64,000 bases of DNA from assembly GCF_001624705.1 (NCBI RefSeq), contig NZ_JSEO01000014.1, positions 62,001 to 126,000 of the forward strand. Reading direction: 5' to 3'. The DNA is from Marinomonas sp. SBI8L. Lineage in GTDB: Bacteria; Pseudomonadota; Gammaproteobacteria; Pseudomonadales; Marinomonadaceae. The position numbers and the translations under genes are program-made. The notes under the pieces are model-generated. The model saw only the letters and a program-made list of their open reading frames with translations, ran no database searches and had not been told where the DNA came from. Positions 5,341-57,544 of this stretch are shown one piece after another (position 1 is the first letter of the stretch; each line of letters opens with the position of its first letter).

Positions 5341-5715
5341 ATGCAGCCAGATATTGAAATTTACCTGCTTTCTTGCAACAAGGACAAAATTTTTGAGTGG
5401 TTGCAGACTCACTTTGAAATCATTGACCAAAAAGCCTTAAATAAAAACTTAATAAGTCTTAATGCTTCAATTAATGGTGCTGAGTTTGAAATTCAAATAC
5501 TCGAAGAAGCTGCTGGAAAACGCTTCACTTCGGTTTGGTTGAATTCAGACAAAACACCTTGGAAAGATGATGTAGAATGCGCTAAAGCGGCTTACCAAGC
5601 TCTAAACTGCGAAATTAGATGTAATATTGGCAGCTGGAGCGAAGTGGAGGAGCAAGATCCTGATCAATGGTGGCATATAAACCAATATGAAGAAGGCCCA
5701 TTTATTTGGCGCTAA
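5341..5715 (+). CDS. Conserved hypothetical protein downstream of dapE
   Basis: A 124-residue soluble acidic protein without signal peptide or membrane helix. The C-terminus is unusual for its tryptophans, with WSEVEEQDPDQWWHI and a terminal EEGPFIWR. The spacing to the upstream membrane protein gene (5 bases) suggests translational coupling. Small proteins of similar layout occur near dapE in related gammaproteobacteria as far as I can recall, but no function can be stated. Confidence 0.72.
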   Translation: MQPDIEIYLLSCNKDKIFEWLQTHFEIIDQKALNKNLISLNASINGAEFEIQILEEAAGKRFTSVWLNSDKTPWKDDVECAKAAYQALNCEIRCNIGSWSEVEEQDPDQWWHINQYEEGPFIWR

Positions 5716-11802: not shown

Positions 11803-12040
11803 CTATATATAATTTTAAAAAATAAAAACTGGTCTGACTTTTGTCGGTCTTACAGGCAGAGCATCACCTAGCTCAAATTGATACCTAGCCATTTACAAGT
11901 CATAAAAAATAAAACGGTCGCCAAGGATACCCAAGCAAGCATTGAATATGCAAATTAACTGACAAATATTCGTTATTAGGATCTGAATTGATCGCTTTTA
12001 AACAATTTTTTGGCAATTTTACCTGACTATACCTTGCTGA

Positions 12041-12070
12041 GAGTGAAAAACCTGTCCAAGGTTTTCACTC
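12041..12070. repeat. Inverted repeat downstream of ppc
   Basis: GAGTGAAAAACC pairs with GGTTTTCACTC across CTGTCCAA (one bulged A). It lies 20 bases beyond the ppc stop. There is no T-run on either strand, so this may be a 3'-end stabilising hairpin or a Rho-assisted stop rather than an intrinsic terminator. The rest of 11794-12089 shows no gene and presumably holds the adk promoter. Confidence 0.55.
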
Positions 12071-12089
12071 TTGAAGGCTAAGGCTTCAT

Positions 12090-14720
12090 TTAACCCGTAT
12101 TCTGCATGCCACTTGCGATACCCGCCATGGTTATCATAAGCGCTTTACTCACTTTTTTGTTATCAGACGTTTGTCTACTACGGTAGAGTAATTCTGCTTG
12201 CAGGTAATGTAACGGATCTATGTAAGGGTTACGAACATCAATTGACTGACGTATGGTTTGATTATCCTCTATCAAACGCTCTTGCTCTTTCAGCTCAATA
12301 ATCAGTGAACTTACTTTTTGCAGCTTATTACGCAATAAACGCCCTAATGGTTTTAGCTCTTCAGGCACAAGACGTTTTTCATAATATTCGGCTATTTCAG
12401 GCTCTGCCTTAGCAAGTACCATATCTAACATATCAAGATAAGCGGAGAAGAAAGGCCACTCTTCTCGCATCTGTCTTAATTTCTCTAAGTGTCCCGAATC
12501 AACCGCTTGCTGCAACGCACTTTCAGCACCTAGCCAAGCAGGTAACATCAAGCGTATTTGCATCCAAGCAAAAATCCAAGGAATGGCACGTAAACTTTCG
12601 ACGCCACCATCACTTTTACGACGAGCAGGTCGAGAACCTAATGGCAACTCTGCCAATTCCTGCTCTGGTGTAATAGCTCTAAAGTAAGGCACGAAGTCTT
12701 CATGGCCTCGAACTATGCTGCGATATTGATTCATACCTATCTCAGCCATTTCATCCATAACAGCGCGCCATTCTTCTTTTGGCGCCTCTGCAGGCATCAA
12801 TGTCGCTTCCAACACAGCAGAGCAATAAAGCTCTAAAGACCGTACTGCGATATCTGGAATACCAAATTTAAAGCGAATCATCTCACCTTGCTCTGTCACT
12901 CGAATAGAACCATTCACAGAACCTGGAGGTTGAGACAAAATAGCAACATGCGCAGGACCACCACCACGACCAACTGTACCACCACGACCATGGAACAAAG
13001 TCAGGCGCACACCATGCTTATGACACAAATCTGTTAGCGCTTCTTGAGCTCGATACTGCCCCCAAGTTGCCGCAATTTGTCCTGCATCTTTCGCAGAATC
13101 AGAGTAACCAATCATGACTTCTTGCTGGCCATCAATATAAGCCTTATACCAAGGCATAGAGAAAAGTTGCTCAATTGTCGGCTGGGCATTATCAAGGTCT
13201 GCGAGTGTTTCAAATAAAGGTACAATACGCATTTTCTGGACGACGCCACTCTCTTGCAATAAAAGAGCAACGGCCAAAACATCAGAAGGCGCGCTAGCCA
13301 TAGAGATCACATAAGAGCCAAATGAACTGGCATCACCATCCGCTATCATGGCAAAAGTATCTAAGACTTCTTTAACTTCAGGCGTTGTCACCCAATCACG
13401 GGGCAACAATGGGCGCTTAGAGTTTAATTCAGTTAACAAAAATGCTTGGCGTGATGCTTCATCCCATTCGGCATAATCACCAACACCATAAAAACGAGTA
13501 ATCGCAGATAGTGCATCAATATGACGCGATGCATCTTGCCTTACATCCAGTTTAACTAGACTCAAACCAAAAGTGGCTGCACAACGAATCAAATCTAGCA
13601 GGCGACCATTAGCAATTACCTTCATGCCACAATCAATCAAAGATTGGTGGCAAAGCACCAGATCATCATGTAATTGTTTACTATCTAAAAGAATATTTTC
13701 ACGACTCGCAGGTTCACCTTTAATACAAGCTTGAGCCCAGTCGCGAGTTGCGATCATTTTATTTTCAAGGTTTCGTAGAATTTCACGATAAGGCTGAGTG
13801 CTTTCGCCAACTCTATCTCTTAAAGCCTGATTACATTCGGACATAGAGAACTCAGAACGCAGGACATTTAAATCTTTTATATAAAGATCTGCCGCCATCC
13901 AGCGAGCCAGCAAGCTCACTTCTTTCGTCACCTTAGCTGTCACATTAGGATTACCGTCTCTATCACCGCCCATCCAAGTCGCAAACTTAACAGGCGCCAA
14001 ATCCATAGGCATTAAAGCCCCATCTAAGTGACGGCTAAATTGTTGCTCTAATTGACGATAAAAGCGTGGAATTGCTTGCCACAAAGATTGCTCAATAACA
14101 GCAAAGCCCCATTTAGCTTCATCAACTGGCGTCGGTCTTTGATCACGGATTTCATCCGTATGCCAAGCCTGCGTAATAATTTCACTTAAGCGACGTACAT
14201 GAATATCTTCTTCAAGCGGAAGAATATTATCTTTATCTAGCGCTTCAAGTTCAGAGGAAATGTTGTCATATTTTTGAATAAGGGAACGACGTACTACTTC
14301 TGTTGGGTGTGCGGTTAAAACAAGCTCTATGGACTGCTCTTTCAAGGTTGAAAGAATACTTTCCTGACTGTGACCATTATCATGCAGTCGAGTAAGCAAG
14401 TCACCAACTGGGTTTTGGTATACACCTAAGCTCTCATTTGTGCGACGTCTATGCACCCTATGATATTGCTCAGCAATATTTGATAGATTAAGGAATTGGT
14501 TAAAAGCACGAGCAACAGGTACTATCTCATCATCGTTCAACGCCTCAAGCGCTGCAATCAAAGGGGCTGAATCGCCTGCCTGTCGACCTTCTTTAGATAG
14601 TCTGCGAATATCTTCAACTTGATTAAGTAAGTCTTCCCCTAAATGATTAATCATGGTTTCCCCAAGACAATCACCTAAAAGTCTCACATTTTCGCGTAAC
14701 GAAGCCTGTCGATCACTCAC
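12090..14720 (-). CDS. ppc: Phosphoenolpyruvate carboxylase
   Basis: An 876-residue anaplerotic enzyme forming oxaloacetate from PEP and bicarbonate. Catalytic signatures are VLTAHPTEVVRRSLIQKY (active-site His, about residues 133-150), FATWMGGDRDGNPNVTAKVT (about 247-266), GYSDSAKDAGQIAATW (about 538-553) and LFHGRGGTVGRGGGPAH (about 574-590). The C-terminus SGMQNTG is the conserved end that closes over the active site. Length is the bacterial norm (about 880). It appears monocistronic, with 120 bases upstream before mazG. Confidence 0.97.
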   Translation of the reverse strand: MSDRQASLRENVRLLGDCLGETMINHLGEDLLNQVEDIRRLSKEGRQAGDSAPLIAALEALNDDEIVPVARAFNQFLNLSNIAEQYHRVHRRRTNESLGVYQNPVGDLLTRLHDNGHSQESILSTLKEQSIELVLTAHPTEVVRRSLIQKYDNISSELEALDKDNILPLEEDIHVRRLSEIITQAWHTDEIRDQRPTPVDEAKWGFAVIEQSLWQAIPRFYRQLEQQFSRHLDGALMPMDLAPVKFATWMGGDRDGNPNVTAKVTKEVSLLARWMAADLYIKDLNVLRSEFSMSECNQALRDRVGESTQPYREILRNLENKMIATRDWAQACIKGEPASRENILLDSKQLHDDLVLCHQSLIDCGMKVIANGRLLDLIRCAATFGLSLVKLDVRQDASRHIDALSAITRFYGVGDYAEWDEASRQAFLLTELNSKRPLLPRDWVTTPEVKEVLDTFAMIADGDASSFGSYVISMASAPSDVLAVALLLQESGVVQKMRIVPLFETLADLDNAQPTIEQLFSMPWYKAYIDGQQEVMIGYSDSAKDAGQIAATWGQYRAQEALTDLCHKHGVRLTLFHGRGGTVGRGGGPAHVAILSQPPGSVNGSIRVTEQGEMIRFKFGIPDIAVRSLELYCSAVLEATLMPAEAPKEEWRAVMDEMAEIGMNQYRSIVRGHEDFVPYFRAITPEQELAELPLGSRPARRKSDGGVESLRAIPWIFAWMQIRLMLPAWLGAESALQQAVDSGHLEKLRQMREEWPFFSAYLDMLDMVLAKAEPEIAEYYEKRLVPEELKPLGRLLRNKLQKVSSLIIELKEQERLIEDNQTIRQSIDVRNPYIDPLHYLQAELLYRSRQTSDNKKVSKALMITMAGIASGMQNTG

Positions 14721-51475: not shown

Positions 51476-51748
51476 ATGCCACTCTCAATTCCCTTAACAC
51501 AAACACAAAGAGTTTTTCTAGGCCGTCTCAATAGTGGGTACACACTTACTAAAGATGCAAACAACAAATATTGTTTTGCACATAAAGACAGACCAGAAGA
51601 AAAAAAGAAAATCGTCTACTACGAAAAGACCGTCGCCGCCCTCATTAAAAAAGGTCTACTCAGCGAAAACCTAGAACTGACAGACCTTTACCATGAGAAA
51701 ATGGCAAAGCTGTATATTTGGAAAAGCGATAGACCAAAAGAAGATTAG
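51476..51748 (+). CDS. Small protein at the left edge of the toxin island
   Basis: A 90-residue basic protein with a compact alpha/beta look: TQTQRVFLGRLNSGYTLT, then an aromatic strand NKYCFAH, then a helix-rich part with YYEKTVAALIKKGLL resembling a winged-helix segment. No family recognised. The ribosome site is weak. It lies 106 bases before the toxin gene on the same strand. A decayed second copy of its 3' two-thirds lies at 56896-57050, at the other end of the island. Confidence 0.6.
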   Translation: MPLSIPLTQTQRVFLGRLNSGYTLTKDANNKYCFAHKDRPEEKKKIVYYEKTVAALIKKGLLSENLELTDLYHEKMAKLYIWKSDRPKED

Positions 51749-51854
51749 ACTCTCAAAAAATGAGAATTAATACGAAAGCCTTACAAAACTCTCATTAACA
51801 TCTTGTCCTTATTAGGGTTTAATCCGCCTTTTTAATCGCAAGGATGCGGCCAAG

Positions 51855-54179
51855 ATGTACCATAGAATTGCCCCAACGGAATCCGTGCTTCTTAATGAAG
51901 CCACTCAAATCGAAGCCGACTTCTCTTCTTTCAACGAAGAGAATTGGCAAGCTATCACCCCCACAAATCTTTCCCCAGAACAGGTAAAACAAAAACTAAC
52001 AGATGGTGAAGTCGTCGCCTTAGCGGACACTCCAAATGTACCGCTTTTTTGCTTTATAAAAGGGGACATTGAAGTCAATCCTCTGGCAATTTCCCAAGCA
52101 AACCAAGACCTCATCAGACGTCTTAATGCTAGGTTCGACGCCAAAGGCAGTGGCGCCTCTTTTAGCGCTCAATCAGCACAATCAAATGGTAACTTACATC
52201 CTCCCGCCCCCATGGAAGAAAAGGCCCCAGAACCTATTGTTAAAGACCCAGAGCCAGAAGTCAGCAAACCTAAAATTCCAGCGTCTTTTGGTCAGCCACC
52301 TGCTCCTATCATTTTAGAAGTGGTTTATGACGATAAAGAAAAAACGCCTGTTGGTGATGTCCCCTACAAACTTGTCTTTGATGATCCTAAACAAACCGTA
52401 TTAACAGGTTCGCTTAATCCTATGGGTTGGGCGTGTGTGGAAGACTGCCCAAACGCCAAAGCCAGCATAAGTTTTGGAGAAGCCGTCGATAACCAAGCAG
52501 AGCTGGATAGCCTTTATGCCGAATTAGAGACTGCACTTGATAATACCATTAACAAAGTCGCTGATTACACGCTAGAGAAATTAAACGACATCGAAATCAG
52601 TGCAATCACAGAGACCTCAAATCAACAACTAAATGATTACCTTGCTGAGCTTAGCAACACACTTGAGGATGTGGATATGCTCAGCTTTTACGGCAATACG
52701 ATAGATAAAGCCAAAAACGCAGCAAGTGATGTCACTGACGCCCTTAAAGAGTTTCTCCCTCAAGATACAGCAGACTTAGACGAAACGGCCCTCAGTCCAA
52801 TTCAAGACGCCCTTTGCACTGCGGTTATCGATGGTGACATTGATGCACTGGAGTCAGCATTAGCTGGTTGGAAGCCTAGGGATGAGATCAGGCTGAAAGC
52901 AGAATCAAAAGCCATGGAAAAACAGATTCTCATCATTAACGATCAACAAAGCCGCAATATACTCACAACCAGTTGCCAGCGCTTTGTTAAGGCCATGACA
53001 CCCGAAAAGCTTATCGACTTAGCTGTATATCTCTCTGTTAAAACCACCGAAGACGCCAGCCTCAATAGCGTCTCAAACCTAATGGGAATACTCTCAGGTA
53101 AAATCAGCCTAGCCATTACCCGCCAAGTGCTATTGTCCGCAACCACAGACACTAAAACTGAATGGTATAAAGACATTTCTCAAGCCCTTAGCAACTTGGT
53201 TAAACCACTGAAAACCCTCAGACCTTTTGATGCTGAATATAGCCATAAAAAAGTCATCGAGATCCCCTTAGCTAAAGCCGACATCCAACCATCGGACTGG
53301 GCTAAAAAGACAGAAAATGAAAAGATAAAAACCATCACAGACAAACCTGATGACAGCATCCTAGATGATGAAATGGACAAAAAATGGCTGATCGTACCAA
53401 AGGGACAATTGACCTTTGATGTGGAAGGGAATGACAACGACTCAAGTGTAAGTTTTAGTCGAACTGTCCACCTTCCTGTTCGAGGTAAAGCATCCACCTC
53501 AGAAGTAGTTGCTGGTGCATCAGGTATTACCATAGGTAGAGGCTTAGATGTCGGTTCTAGGTCGACTAAAGAGGTCCAAGGCTATTTTGATAAAGTAGCT
53601 GAACATTGTAGACCTGTTGCACCTGAACTTATCACGTTTTTGAAAGACTCAGTGGGGATGAAGGGAGCCAGTAATAAAACAGGCGAAAAATTAGAAGGCG
53701 ATGCTAAAACTGCCCATATTCAAAAAGCACAAGAAAACGATAAGGCGCTAATTAAGTACGTTAAAGACTTTAAAGACAGCATTAAAGATAAGTCTAAAAT
53801 CACCCTGACCCGTAAGCAGCAGTATTATCTTTTCCTTGCTATTTATGATTATTATGAAGGTGAAGCTAAACGTTTAAGTACCAAACCAGACGTTTGTAGA
53901 GACTACCTAAATGATAACAAGATCGACTGGGATGCTCTGCCTCAGAACGTAAAAGATGTGTTAGTCGATTTAACTTACCGAGGCGATTACACAGGGACTA
54001 AAGATGCAAGAGGTAATTCCAGAAAAGTTATAGTACCTGCTGTATACAAAGACCAAAAAGATGATCTTAAAGGGGAAAAATCTGGATTTAGCAAAGTTAT
54101 GAAAAACGAAGACTTTTGGACATCAACCTTTGGAGTAGATGGCAATAGGTATACAAAACGAATGGAGTATTTAAAATGA
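51855..54179 (+). CDS. Polymorphic toxin/effector with pesticin-like muramidase domain
   Basis: A 774-residue protein. Residues about 1-110 are a unique head; 115-150 are Pro/Glu-rich linker; 152-208 resemble a transthyretin-like beta-domain found in type VI secretion tip proteins and effectors (EVVYDDKEKTPVGDVPYKLV); 210-450 are helical; 510-774 are a pesticin/T4-lysozyme-like domain. Its motif FDVEGNDNDSSVSFSR supplies the candidate catalytic Glu524, and SGITIGRGLDVGSRS the Thr559/Asp565 residues. It would cut peptidoglycan. No signal peptide is visible, so a contact-dependent or T6SS route is inferred, but no T6SS genes are in the window. The stop overlaps the immunity gene by 4 bases. Confidence 0.8.
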   Translation: MYHRIAPTESVLLNEATQIEADFSSFNEENWQAITPTNLSPEQVKQKLTDGEVVALADTPNVPLFCFIKGDIEVNPLAISQANQDLIRRLNARFDAKGSGASFSAQSAQSNGNLHPPAPMEEKAPEPIVKDPEPEVSKPKIPASFGQPPAPIILEVVYDDKEKTPVGDVPYKLVFDDPKQTVLTGSLNPMGWACVEDCPNAKASISFGEAVDNQAELDSLYAELETALDNTINKVADYTLEKLNDIEISAITETSNQQLNDYLAELSNTLEDVDMLSFYGNTIDKAKNAASDVTDALKEFLPQDTADLDETALSPIQDALCTAVIDGDIDALESALAGWKPRDEIRLKAESKAMEKQILIINDQQSRNILTTSCQRFVKAMTPEKLIDLAVYLSVKTTEDASLNSVSNLMGILSGKISLAITRQVLLSATTDTKTEWYKDISQALSNLVKPLKTLRPFDAEYSHKKVIEIPLAKADIQPSDWAKKTENEKIKTITDKPDDSILDDEMDKKWLIVPKGQLTFDVEGNDNDSSVSFSRTVHLPVRGKASTSEVVAGASGITIGRGLDVGSRSTKEVQGYFDKVAEHCRPVAPELITFLKDSVGMKGASNKTGEKLEGDAKTAHIQKAQENDKALIKYVKDFKDSIKDKSKITLTRKQQYYLFLAIYDYYEGEAKRLSTKPDVCRDYLNDNKIDWDALPQNVKDVLVDLTYRGDYTGTKDARGNSRKVIVPAVYKDQKDDLKGEKSGFSKVMKNEDFWTSTFGVDGNRYTKRMEYLK

Positions 54180-54550
54180 GGTTTTTTGTATTAATTTTAG
54201 CTTTATTAATACCTTTCTATGCAGTAGCAATAGAAATTAAAGACGTTAGATTTTACCAAACAGATAATATTGTGCCAAATGGAAGAACTCCTCACTACTC
54301 AGTATATATAAAGAATGACAATCCTTGTATTTTCGTTGATGACCTAAGAAAAAATCGAACTACTGAGTATTGTGATATTGAAGGAACTGATTATAACTTT
54401 AAAAATGACTTTCCAAGTATTTATCCCATTAATCTAAGGCTTTCGGGGGCATCATTATATTTTATTGTTGCAGCACCTTGGGACGAGCAAAAGTGTGAGA
54501 TTTTCTTTCCCGAGAACAGCATTACTTGTGAATCCACAGGAAGAAACTAA
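54176..54550 (+). CDS. Putative periplasmic immunity protein 1
   Basis: A 124-residue secreted protein: signal peptide RFFVLILALLIPFYAVA with cleavage near residue 19. The mature chain is mostly strands with four conserved cysteines (PCIFV, EYCDI, KCEIF, ITCES), fitting two disulphides in the periplasm. Its ATG overlaps the toxin stop (ATGA), typical of toxin-immunity pairs. A periplasmic location is right for blocking a peptidoglycan hydrolase. It is a clear paralogue of the 123-residue protein at 55065-55436. Immunity function is inferred from context. Confidence 0.75.
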   Translation: MRFFVLILALLIPFYAVAIEIKDVRFYQTDNIVPNGRTPHYSVYIKNDNPCIFVDDLRKNRTTEYCDIEGTDYNFKNDFPSIYPINLRLSGASLYFIVAAPWDEQKCEIFFPENSITCESTGRN

Positions 54551-54680
54551 ACACTCTCATTGTTTGAAGCATTGAAGGAATACATGCGAACTTCGTCTAG
54601 TGTAAACCAGCCCAACCTTTTATAAAAAGTTTGGGCTTTATGACTTCCTTGAGACTTAAGTGTGATGCAAAAGTCCCCAA
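54547..54680 (-). pseudogene. Antisense remnant of a GNAT acetyltransferase gene, copy 1
   Basis: On the minus strand this stretch encodes an intact GNAT C-terminus: ITLKSQGSHKAQTFYKRLGW followed by FTLDEVRMYSFNASNNESV and a TAG that overlaps the immunity gene stop. The block SQGSHKAQxFYxRLGW is a textbook GNAT motif B/C-terminal segment. The rest of the enzyme is missing; the toxin-like sequence takes over at about 54684. It is the upstream piece of the ORF that begins at 54640 in the other direction. Confidence 0.7.
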
Positions 54681-55068
54681 GGCAGAACAAGAAATAACCC
54701 GTAAGATGCAGCACCACATTTTTAATCTAGTCTATGCAACCTACGTCGATGACGCCAAAAGACTGACCACCAAACCAGATGTTTGTAGAGATTATCTAAA
54801 TGATAACAAGATTGATTGGGATGCTTTGCCTCAAAAAGTAAAAGATGTGTTAGTCGATTTAACTTACAGAGGTGATTACACAGGCACTAAAGATAAGAGA
54901 GGTAATACTCGAAAAGTCATAGTCCCTGCGGTGTATAGAGATCAGATTAATAACCTAAGAGATGATAAATCAGAATTTTATGTTGTTCTAAAAAATGAAA
55001 AACTTTGGAAAATAGATTTTCAAGTAGATGGAAATCGATTTACTAAAAGACAGGAGATTTTTGAATGA
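54640..55068 (+). pseudogene. Orphan C-terminal toxin piece (cassette 2)
   Basis: About 142 residues from the ATG at 54640 (a TTG at 54631 is also in frame). From about residue 20 it matches the last 130 residues of the upstream toxin: the block KPDVCRDYLNDNKIDWDALP and VKDVLVDLTYRGDYTGTKD are near identical, then the last 35 residues diverge. It lacks the catalytic Glu and Thr/Asp motifs and any export head, so it should be inert alone. The first 15-20 residues come from GNAT antisense sequence. It overlaps its immunity gene by 4 bases. It may act as a donor cassette for recombination. Confidence 0.75.
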
Positions 55069-55436
55069 AAGCAGTTTTAGTCATATCACTTTTAATTATG
55101 TCACTAACATCAGTAGCTAATGAAATAACACAGTATAAGTACTATCAAACAGACAATATTGTTCCAAACGGAAGAGAACCTCATTATGCTGTCTACATTA
55201 TCAATAAAGAGCCTTGTATCTTTGTAAAAGATTTTAGAGAAGACGAAGTTGAAGAGTATTGTAAGCTTGATGATAGTGAACTCGATTTAAAAATAAATTC
55301 CCCTACTATATACCCTATTGACCTTAGATTATCCTCTAAAACTCTTTATTTTACTGTTGCAGCTCCTTGGAATGAACAGAAATGTGAGATTTTTTTCCCG
55401 AGAAAAAGCATCACGTGTGAATCAACAGGAAGATAA
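55065..55436 (+). CDS. Putative periplasmic immunity protein 2
   Basis: A 123-residue secreted paralogue of the gene at 54176, with signal peptide (VLVISLLIMSLTSVANE) and the same four cysteines. The YYQTDNIVPNGREPHYAVYI block and AAPWNEQKCEIFFP end are nearly shared, while the mid-part differs (acidic EDEVEEYCKLDD against KNRTTEYCDIEG). This differing part fits a specificity surface against the diverged toxin tail. It is coupled to the toxin piece by ATGA. It is kept intact although its toxin partner is incomplete. Confidence 0.72.
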   Translation: MKAVLVISLLIMSLTSVANEITQYKYYQTDNIVPNGREPHYAVYIINKEPCIFVKDFREDEVEEYCKLDDSELDLKINSPTIYPIDLRLSSKTLYFTVAAPWNEQKCEIFFPRKSITCESTGR

Positions 55437-55437
55437 A

Positions 55438-55533
55438 CTAAACACTCTCATTATTTGAAGAATTAAAGGAATACATGCGGATTTCGTCTCGTGCAAACCA
55501 GCCCAACTTTTCATAAAAAGCTTGGGCTTTTTT
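55438..55533 (-). pseudogene. Antisense remnant of a GNAT acetyltransferase gene, copy 2
   Basis: The minus strand encodes KKAQAFYEKLGWFARDEIRM and YSFNSSNNESV followed by TAG. It is the shorter, diverged twin of the remnant at 54547-54680; identity fades beyond the KAQ residues. It starts right after the second immunity gene, so each immunity gene carries the same tail. Confidence 0.68.
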
Positions 55534-56868: not shown

Positions 56869-56895
56869 TCAATTAGCAAATAAGCACTGACCAGA

Positions 56896-57050
56896 CCGAA
56901 AAAGGAAGTCGTCTACTACGAAAAACCGTCGCCGCCCTCATTAAATAAGGCCTACTCAGCGAAAACCTAGAACTGACAGACCTTTACCATGAAAAAATGG
57001 CAAAGCTGTATATTTGGAAAAGCGATAGACCCAAAGAAGATCAAGACTAA
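56896..57050 (+). pseudogene. Decayed duplicate of the 90-residue border gene
   Basis: Nearly identical in sequence to 51594-51748 over about 150 bases. It lacks the gene's first third. Compared with the intact copy it has a one-base deletion near 56923 (AAAAACC against AAAAGACC), which shifts the frame, and a TAA in the ATTAAATAAGG region. The 3' end remains in frame to a TAA at 57050. It is a dead duplicate marking the right border of the island. Confidence 0.85.
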
Positions 57051-57115: not shown

Positions 57116-57544
57116 TTACCCTTTATCTAAAATCACATTAGCAAAGACCATAGGGCTTTTAAAGCGATGAGTATAAGGTCTCTTAATCGTTACAACTTCC
57201 TCAGCTTTTAGCTCAAAAGGCATCTCATCGACATAATATCGTTTAGCAATATAACCACTTTTACCGCCTGCAACGGCAGAAGCACCTTGATTTCTGTATA
57301 AGGTCACTCGAAGGTTCCCAGCTTGCAAATCTGTAGATTCATTTACAAGCTTAACCAATATGTGGCATGTTGTACCTTCACATACCAGCTTCTGATCAAG
57401 TGCTTTTACAGGTTTACCATCATAAAGGGAGTAGAAAACAATAAGTACAAAACCGACCAAACTACCTAGCTTGAAAACAGCTTTGAAAAACTTTGAAAGA
57501 ATTCTAGTAGCTCTTATTTGTGCATCCCGCTTATTTCTATTCAT
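57116..57544 (-). CDS. Single-pass membrane protein with extracytoplasmic domain
   Basis: A 142-residue protein. The basic N-terminus (about residues 1-25) precedes one helix (LGSLVGFVLIVFYSLYDG, about 27-44). The rest looks extracytoplasmic, with two cysteines in LVCEGTTCHILVKLV (about 53-67) and beta-rich sequence up to KSPMVFANVILDKG. Inside-positive topology is expected. Function unknown. It lies on the opposite strand to the island and the helicase locus, between them. Confidence 0.65.
   Translation of the reverse strand: MNRNKRDAQIRATRILSKFFKAVFKLGSLVGFVLIVFYSLYDGKPVKALDQKLVCEGTTCHILVKLVNESTDLQAGNLRVTLYRNQGASAVAGGKSGYIAKRYYVDEMPFELKAEEVVTIKRPYTHRFKSPMVFANVILDKG

Follow-up and report, generated by a model that had tools for sequence, protein, structure and literature searches.

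The closest described relatives of the locus treated here are effectors of type VI secretion systems (T6SS). In Vibrio cholerae E1, VgrG3cp ends in a pesticin-like muramidase, in which D867 corresponds to pesticin D207, and the immunity gene of the VgrG3cp-TsiV3cp pair lies downstream (PMC9927483). WHIX effectors are cargo effectors of T6SSs; they are polymorphic, end in a pesticin-like domain in some cases, and are accompanied by LprI-type or other secreted immunity candidates; the same report names MIX and PIX as classes with N-terminal motifs (PMC12135965). RIX effectors share an N-terminal T6SS domain, Arg-rich over 55 residues, that is common to different toxins of marine bacteria (PMC10435454). 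In the immunity arrays of V. cholerae, new effector-immunity modules displace old ones; what remains of these are their immunity genes and, in one of the steps described, also the 3' end of an effector gene (PMC5361080). The present locus lies in a 64,000-nt stretch (the window) of contig NZ_JSEO01000014.1, positions 62,001 to 126,000, from the genome of Marinomonas sp. SBI8L (5.19 Mb, 69 contigs). It consists of a pesticin-type toxin gene, the immunity candidate imm1, an orphan toxin C-terminal fragment and a second immunity gene, imm2 (Table 1). The toxin is probably a cargo effector of a T6SS, with imm1 as the matching immunity protein, and the pair has probably diversified by exchange of the C-terminal toxin part together with the immunity gene.

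Like VgrG3cp, the toxin ends in a pesticin-like muramidase and is followed by a candidate immunity gene, and two Marinomonas relatives, L033 and L034 (L numbers denote sequenced loci), repeat the layout of VgrG, peptidoglycan-binding and Pesticin domains; unlike VgrG3cp, the window toxin carries a non-VgrG N-terminal domain (PMC9927483). The WHxxxH motif of WHIX effectors is absent from it, whereas a window-type cassette stands behind WHxxxH in Marinobacter L072 (PMC12135965). As in RIX effectors, an N-terminal domain is common to different toxins, but the first 55 residues of the window toxin contain one Arg (PMC10435454); the comparison of this domain with described classes covers WHIX and RIX. 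As in the V. cholerae arrays, an immunity gene and a toxin 3' end, probably old, lie behind what would be a newer unit, but there modules replace effectors, whereas here one exchange point falls inside the enzyme domain (PMC5361080).

A preliminary description of the stretch, made from its letters, had proposed a pesticin-like toxin paired with a cysteine-rich immunity candidate and followed by a second, incomplete cassette with an orphan toxin C-terminus, a pattern ascribed to cassette diversification in contact-dependent competition. The reading frames and the 4-nt ATGA overlaps at both junctions, toxin/imm1 and fragment/imm2, were verified with their coordinates, as was the incompleteness of the second cassette, whose fragment lacks the catalytic residues and precedes imm2. 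The two candidate immunity proteins are indeed diverged paralogues (58% identity; dN 0.32, dS 3.55, saturated) of a family with four Cys that are invariant in 15 of 15 aligned homologues; imm1 has, as judged by eye, a signal-like N-terminus. Overlaps of 4 nt, as called, occur in 9 of 12 toxin-immunity pairs (ATGA in seven, GTGA in two), so the coupling is not a matter of chance; the remaining three overlap by 8, 13 and 19 nt, the last counted from the first start codon.

The evidence for exchange comes from abrupt breaks of identity between paralogues and relatives. The genome contains a further full gene on contig C1 (707 aa) and two partial copies, one at an end of contig C6 and one at an end of C23, which may belong to one gene. 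The C23 piece agrees with the window DNA at 1098 of 1134 positions over 52728-53861, then at 175 of 302 in the remainder of the toxin gene and 218 of 366 in the immunity gene, and again at 84 of 96 (88%) in the 3' block behind it. At the protein level, 166 of 168 toxin residues are identical from 504 to 671 and 51 of 99 from 672 to 774, and the immunity proteins share 35-37%. This breakpoint lies inside the predicted helix 653-676, which we take to be the interlobe helix of T4-type lysozymes. The C1 copy breaks near 53420 (1449/1565 before, 275/543 after), so that the whole lysozyme differs, and its partner belongs to the LprI family (PF07007, 24.4 bits, cut-off 22). The gene of Marinomonas sp. 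MED121 follows the window to 54059 (1850/2196) and then departs in the toxin end (78/116) and over most of the immunity gene (161/265), with higher identity at the 3' end of that gene (87/107) and in the 3' block (81/96, 84%); a gene close in sequence to the C1 LprI-type partner lies downstream. The 96-nt 3' block, with a terminator-like stem in each copy, is itself present behind both imm1 and imm2 (90% identity). Between Shewanella L067 and L071, most bins ahead of the lysozyme are 75-98% identical, although some drop as low as 49%; identity is then 40-65% from about position 5341 through lysozyme and immunity gene, and returns to 84-88% behind. Marinobacter L072 and L073 share mostly 80-98% to codon ~395 and 56% or less from ~415, a break that precedes the Pesticin match at 543 and behind which no recovery of identity was seen.

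Distances between immunity proteins correlate with those of toxin residues 645-730 (rho 0.47, permutation p 0.001; 12 pairs, 66 comparisons) and, less, of residues 731-774 (rho 0.25, p 0.028), but not with those of residues 504-600 (rho -0.03, p 0.59; 55 comparisons, that region being absent from the fragment; the L070 row is partial). This is suggestive of a unit that joins the C-lobe to the immunity gene, although three uncorrected tests on 12 related pairs, with residues 601-644 skipped, count against leaning on it. The breaks and the comparison of relatives support the proposed diversification of cassettes and go beyond it in placing an exchange point inside the enzyme.

When the immunity profile was run against bacterial and archaeal genomes, it gave 57 stretches with the pattern, eight of them relatives. 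The toxin-immunity pairing holds in seven of these eight, where a pesticin-domain gene lies directly upstream of the immunity gene: MED121 (L031/L068, of the window type by alignment), M. balearica (L033/L069, a VgrG fusion), Shewanella L067, L070 (with two immunity genes in tandem) and L071, Marinobacter L072, and Photobacterium L074 (LysM). The eighth, Marinobacter L073, has a lone immunity gene downstream of a WHxxxH gene with a PF11860 muramidase C-terminus. A T6SS as the delivery route, also beyond the preliminary description, is indicated by the VgrG fusions, by L035, which lies near VgrG- and Hcp-like genes, and by the window genome itself, where TssC occurs in two clusters, VgrG has four matches and PAAR has two.

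In structure comparison the lysozyme domain has the fold of the pesticin catalytic domain, its nearest match, limited to pesticin residues 165-348. The candidate catalytic residues E524, T559 and D565 correspond to pesticin E178, T201 and D207, an equivalence drawn from sequence without a residue-level structural map, and the Thr-Asp spacing is 6 in both. The muramidase label, weak by sequence score, is therefore supported by structure, which sustains the pesticin-like toxin of the preliminary description, and fold and residues suggest that the domain hydrolyses peptidoglycan. Seven of eight Pesticin-matching relatives exceed the Pfam cut-off (PF16754, 25.8 bits), L034 (24.9) lying under it. 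For imm1, no Pfam or NCBIfam family attains its cut-off; a profile over 14 immunity members, with cut-offs shown for imm1 only, gave best E-values of 0.0017 and 0.0006, which were not used. The best Foldseek E-value of imm1 was 0.03, with Tsi1 of the Pseudomonas aeruginosa pair Tse1-Tsi1, which enters this fold comparison only, tied with propeller pieces, so that no assignment was made. Sequence searches of solved structures with toxin, imm1 and the lysozyme, immunity and N-terminal profiles gave matches at chance level only.

The lysozyme profile matched 6 of 369 genomes of the class, the own genome counted. In a plasmid collection, the whole toxin matched three records, none covering more than 33%, and imm1 one; two Persicobacter plasmids match the lysozyme part with ~30% identity (E 2e-16 and 3e-16). 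An origin from phage lysozymes finds no support in phage records, where the domain has no relative at E up to 0.01. Pesticin-like open frames also occur elsewhere: a weakly matching one of 197 aa (E 1e-4) on contig C45 of the own genome (L086:1447-2037, - strand), and stand-alone frames of 219 aa in L077 (genome G496), directly behind a gene of LprI-like look by eye, and 216 aa in L078 (G560).

The N-terminal domain links the toxin to other effectors. Residues 1 to ~135 are common to long Marinomonas open reading frames (ORFs) of two layouts: six ORFs of the first, of which the two scanned (L038, L039) are Tle1-like phospholipases (PF09994), and two of the second, of which the one scanned (L036) has an AHH nuclease domain; similar N-termini occur in Shewanella L067 and L071. 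E20, G51, P60, P63, L114, H115 and E126 are invariant in 14 rows. The window member has no Pfam or NCBIfam match, and among 14 members one has a single chance-level match in each library. Of 49 Marinomonas genomes, eight carry the domain (G012 only as a 114-aa ORF), and all eight are among the 22 with TssC (Fisher p 7e-4; p-values here are indicative only, the genomes being related). A quick TssC tree was built from 29 of 44 matches, covering all 22 genomes; the 15 lowest-scoring were left out, their genomes being already represented. TssC of the C1 cluster has relatives of 80-99% identity in seven other genomes and of at most 45% elsewhere. Seven of the eight genomes with C1-type TssC carry the domain; the other 41 contain one fragment (Fisher p 7e-7). 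Outside the genus the profile is rare: it matched 4 genomes among 390 in the order and 2 among 369 in the class, with the own genome counted in both and the second class-level match, in G560, weak (E 9e-6). Two observations extend the picture. MED121 has a second gene that agrees with its toxin gene in the N-terminal and middle regions and has a hydrophobic, possibly pore-forming end (L032:7564-9726; no Pfam match for residues encoded from 7885 on); a 140-aa hydrophobic partner follows it. The long ORFs of Tle1-like layout in L040, L042 and L044 also carry this N-terminal domain; behind them come two or three lipoprotein-like genes, related to one another, which are another possible immunity array.

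According to the mechanism that we propose, the N-terminal domain (residues 1 to ~132) would load the toxin onto one of the two T6SSs of the cell, that of C1 type, and the lysozyme would cut the peptidoglycan of the target cell once in its periplasm. Imm1, exported via its putative signal peptide and probably disulfide-bonded, would shield the producer and its kin. Units of toxin C-terminal part and immunity gene would be swapped between homologous flanks, one being the catalytic part or the region upstream of it, the other the 3' terminator block. A swap near the interlobe helix would retain the catalytic lobe and replace the C-lobe along with its immunity partner, and could thereby alter immunity specificity while the enzyme is preserved. 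The second cassette would be a unit left behind when a newer one arrived in front; its fragment would be inactive, while imm2 may still guard against kin that carry the old toxin.

Several points weigh against this reading. The window toxin scores 22.1 bits with Pesticin, below the cut-off, and Foldseek links the lysozyme model to pesticin with an E-value of 0.024 only. Model residues 523-525 have a pLDDT under 50, so E524 is placed with low confidence. Apart from the lysozyme, the full-length model is of low quality (mean pLDDT 55.5), with no ten-residue block above 56 in residues 1-130; hence we assign no fold to the N-terminal domain, and none backs its loading role. No T6SS gene was seen beside the window toxin gene. 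G013 has C1-type TssC without the domain, a genome without that lineage has a domain fragment, and the association may reflect shared genome ancestry. An immunity homologue of Photobacterium GJ3 (L075) is set apart: the WHxxxH gene, well upstream of it, has no Pesticin match. Finally, the reading is built on gene order, homology, fold resemblance and identity breaks, from which we infer loading, action, protection and the outcome of exchange.

Alternatively, the toxin could be a released pesticin-like bacteriocin that is taken up through an outer-membrane receptor instead of being injected. Pesticin is the nearest fold, and a region resembling Pyocin_S (20-28 bits) is present in the Shewanella homologues L067, L070 and L071. 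The structural match is nevertheless restricted to part of pesticin, relatives have the cassette as a VgrG fusion, the N-terminal domain sits on phospholipase and nuclease effectors and, among the Marinomonas genomes, it occurs in TssC-positive ones only, so that we consider a released bacteriocin very improbable. Another explanation attributes the breaks not to recombination but to selection, either relaxed or diversifying, that acts on the C-lobe and the immunity genes. Fast evolution is expected at an immunity interface, and dN is 0.32-0.34 in the imm1-imm2 and window-MED121 immunity pairs. Yet the C23 identity drops abruptly from 97% to ~59% of nucleotides and is back at 88% in non-coding DNA, and two Shewanella genes show a similar pattern; selection without recombination is thus unlikely.

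The second cassette might have arisen by plain tandem duplication, diverging and decaying without exchange, as gene order and 3' block are duplicated at a spacing of ~890 nt. The block common to toxin and fragment was described as almost identical, which is correct for the protein (93% of residues, 86% of nucleotides over 59 codons) but does not reflect recent copying: dN of 0.037 against dS of 0.90 argues for protein constraint and rules out a recent duplication. Since the window-MED121 lysozyme dS is 0.65, toxin and fragment split earlier than those two lysozymes or came from different sources. Over 131 codons dN is 0.26 and dS 1.50, and the ends differ as described, identity being 67/91 before residue 735 and 19/39 after it. 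Moreover, the fragment is a mosaic: its residues 10-38 are nearer to the L035 toxin (20/29; L033 17/29, window toxin 9/29), whereas residues 39-98 are nearer to MED121 (54/60) and the window toxin (53/60) than to L035 (34/60), with the split placed by eye near toxin residue 667. Together with the sharp breaks between paralogues, which indicate exchange, these data leave plain duplication with little probability. It is doubtful, though conceivable, that fragment and imm2 are expressed and functional as a decoy, second immunity factor or recombination donor. The frame is open for 142 codons from ATG with dN far under dS, so that the fragment could still be functional, a point against its proposed inactivity; a GGAG-like site precedes imm2, and the short T tract of the first terminator-like stem makes read-through into imm2 possible. 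On the other side, the fragment is without catalytic residues and starts directly behind that stem, and the constraint may be older than the truncation. By sequence comparison, the second cassette is best read as an older exchanged unit without the catalytic part, comprising interlobe-helix region, C-lobe, imm2 and 3' block.

Table 1. Features of the toxin-immunity locus (positions in the window; aa, residues)
Feature	Positions	Strand	Remarks
Probable promoter and ribosome-binding region	51781-51854	+	Common to paralogues
Pesticin-type toxin gene	51855-54179	+	774 aa
N-terminal domain, candidate T6SS delivery domain	51855-52250	+	aa 1-132; common to Tle1-like and AHH effectors; tracks one TssC lineage
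Small beta region, possibly transthyretin-like	52299-52478	+	aa 149-208
Helical region	52479-53396	+	aa 209-514; paralogue-conserved, 81-100% DNA identity per 60-nt bin to C1 and C23
Pesticin-type lysozyme domain	53397-54176	+	aa 515-774; catalytic candidates E524, T559, D565
Exchanged toxin C-terminal part	53862-54179	+	From codon ~670, inside predicted helix 653-676; C23 identity drop
imm1, immunity candidate	54176-54550	+	124 aa; model pLDDT 88
3' block, terminator-like stem	54544-54639	+	Short T tract
Orphan toxin C-terminal fragment	54631-55068	+	145 aa from TTG; in-frame ATG at 54640
imm2, second immunity gene	55065-55436	+	123 aa; imm1 family
3' block, second copy	55435-55530	+	Full T tract

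The DNA preceding the toxin start matches that of the C1 copy, the C6-end copy and both MED121 copies (76-92%). A promoter scan gave five sites against 10.3 in shuffled sequences, and a terminator scan did not detect the repeated stem of the 3' block. GC content is 0.32-0.37 across the 500-nt segments of 54000-55499 and mostly 0.38-0.46 in neighbouring segments, with 0.30 at 57500. Genes of the DUF3024 and DUF6933 families, outside the system, follow imm2. A direct repeat (51575-51745 and 56873-57041; 91% over ~171 nt, 95% in a 144-nt core) brackets the island and forms the 3' part of a 90-aa ORF at 51476-51748; in MED121 only the upstream copy was found. The repeat may mark the route by which the island entered; a search across the genus for an empty insertion site yielded none. 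Behind the MED121 toxin locus (L031:11000-17953), translated ORFs repeat VPCRIGSLE in the manner of a CRISPR array and are followed by possible cas genes, perhaps of type I-F. About 3 kb from the C1 paralogue (L007:14368-18845), the end of a large hemagglutinin-like ORF and a possible 155-aa partner recall CdiA/CdiI, with transposase-like ORFs at 12013-13355, as judged by eye.

The break inside the enzyme and the N-terminal domain look new, each other part having a known parallel; among the titles listed by the literature searches none names this domain or an exchange of the C-lobe, which does not prove absence. A broader proposal, to which we give somewhat less than an even chance, is that immunity specificity changes by exchange of sub-domains, with a fixed catalytic N-lobe, a cassette of C-lobe and immunity gene that has its breakpoint near the interlobe helix and conserved DNA on its flanks, spare units downstream, and an undescribed N-terminal domain that delivers this toxin and unrelated ones via one T6SS lineage. 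If true, the natural paralogues of one genome would offer a ready test of where immunity specificity resides in a lysozyme toxin, and exchange within an enzyme domain would be possible with no need to remake the active site. A further T6SS delivery class would then be represented by the N-terminal domain, joining lysozymes, phospholipases and nucleases, and would aid in finding effectors encoded far from T6SS clusters.

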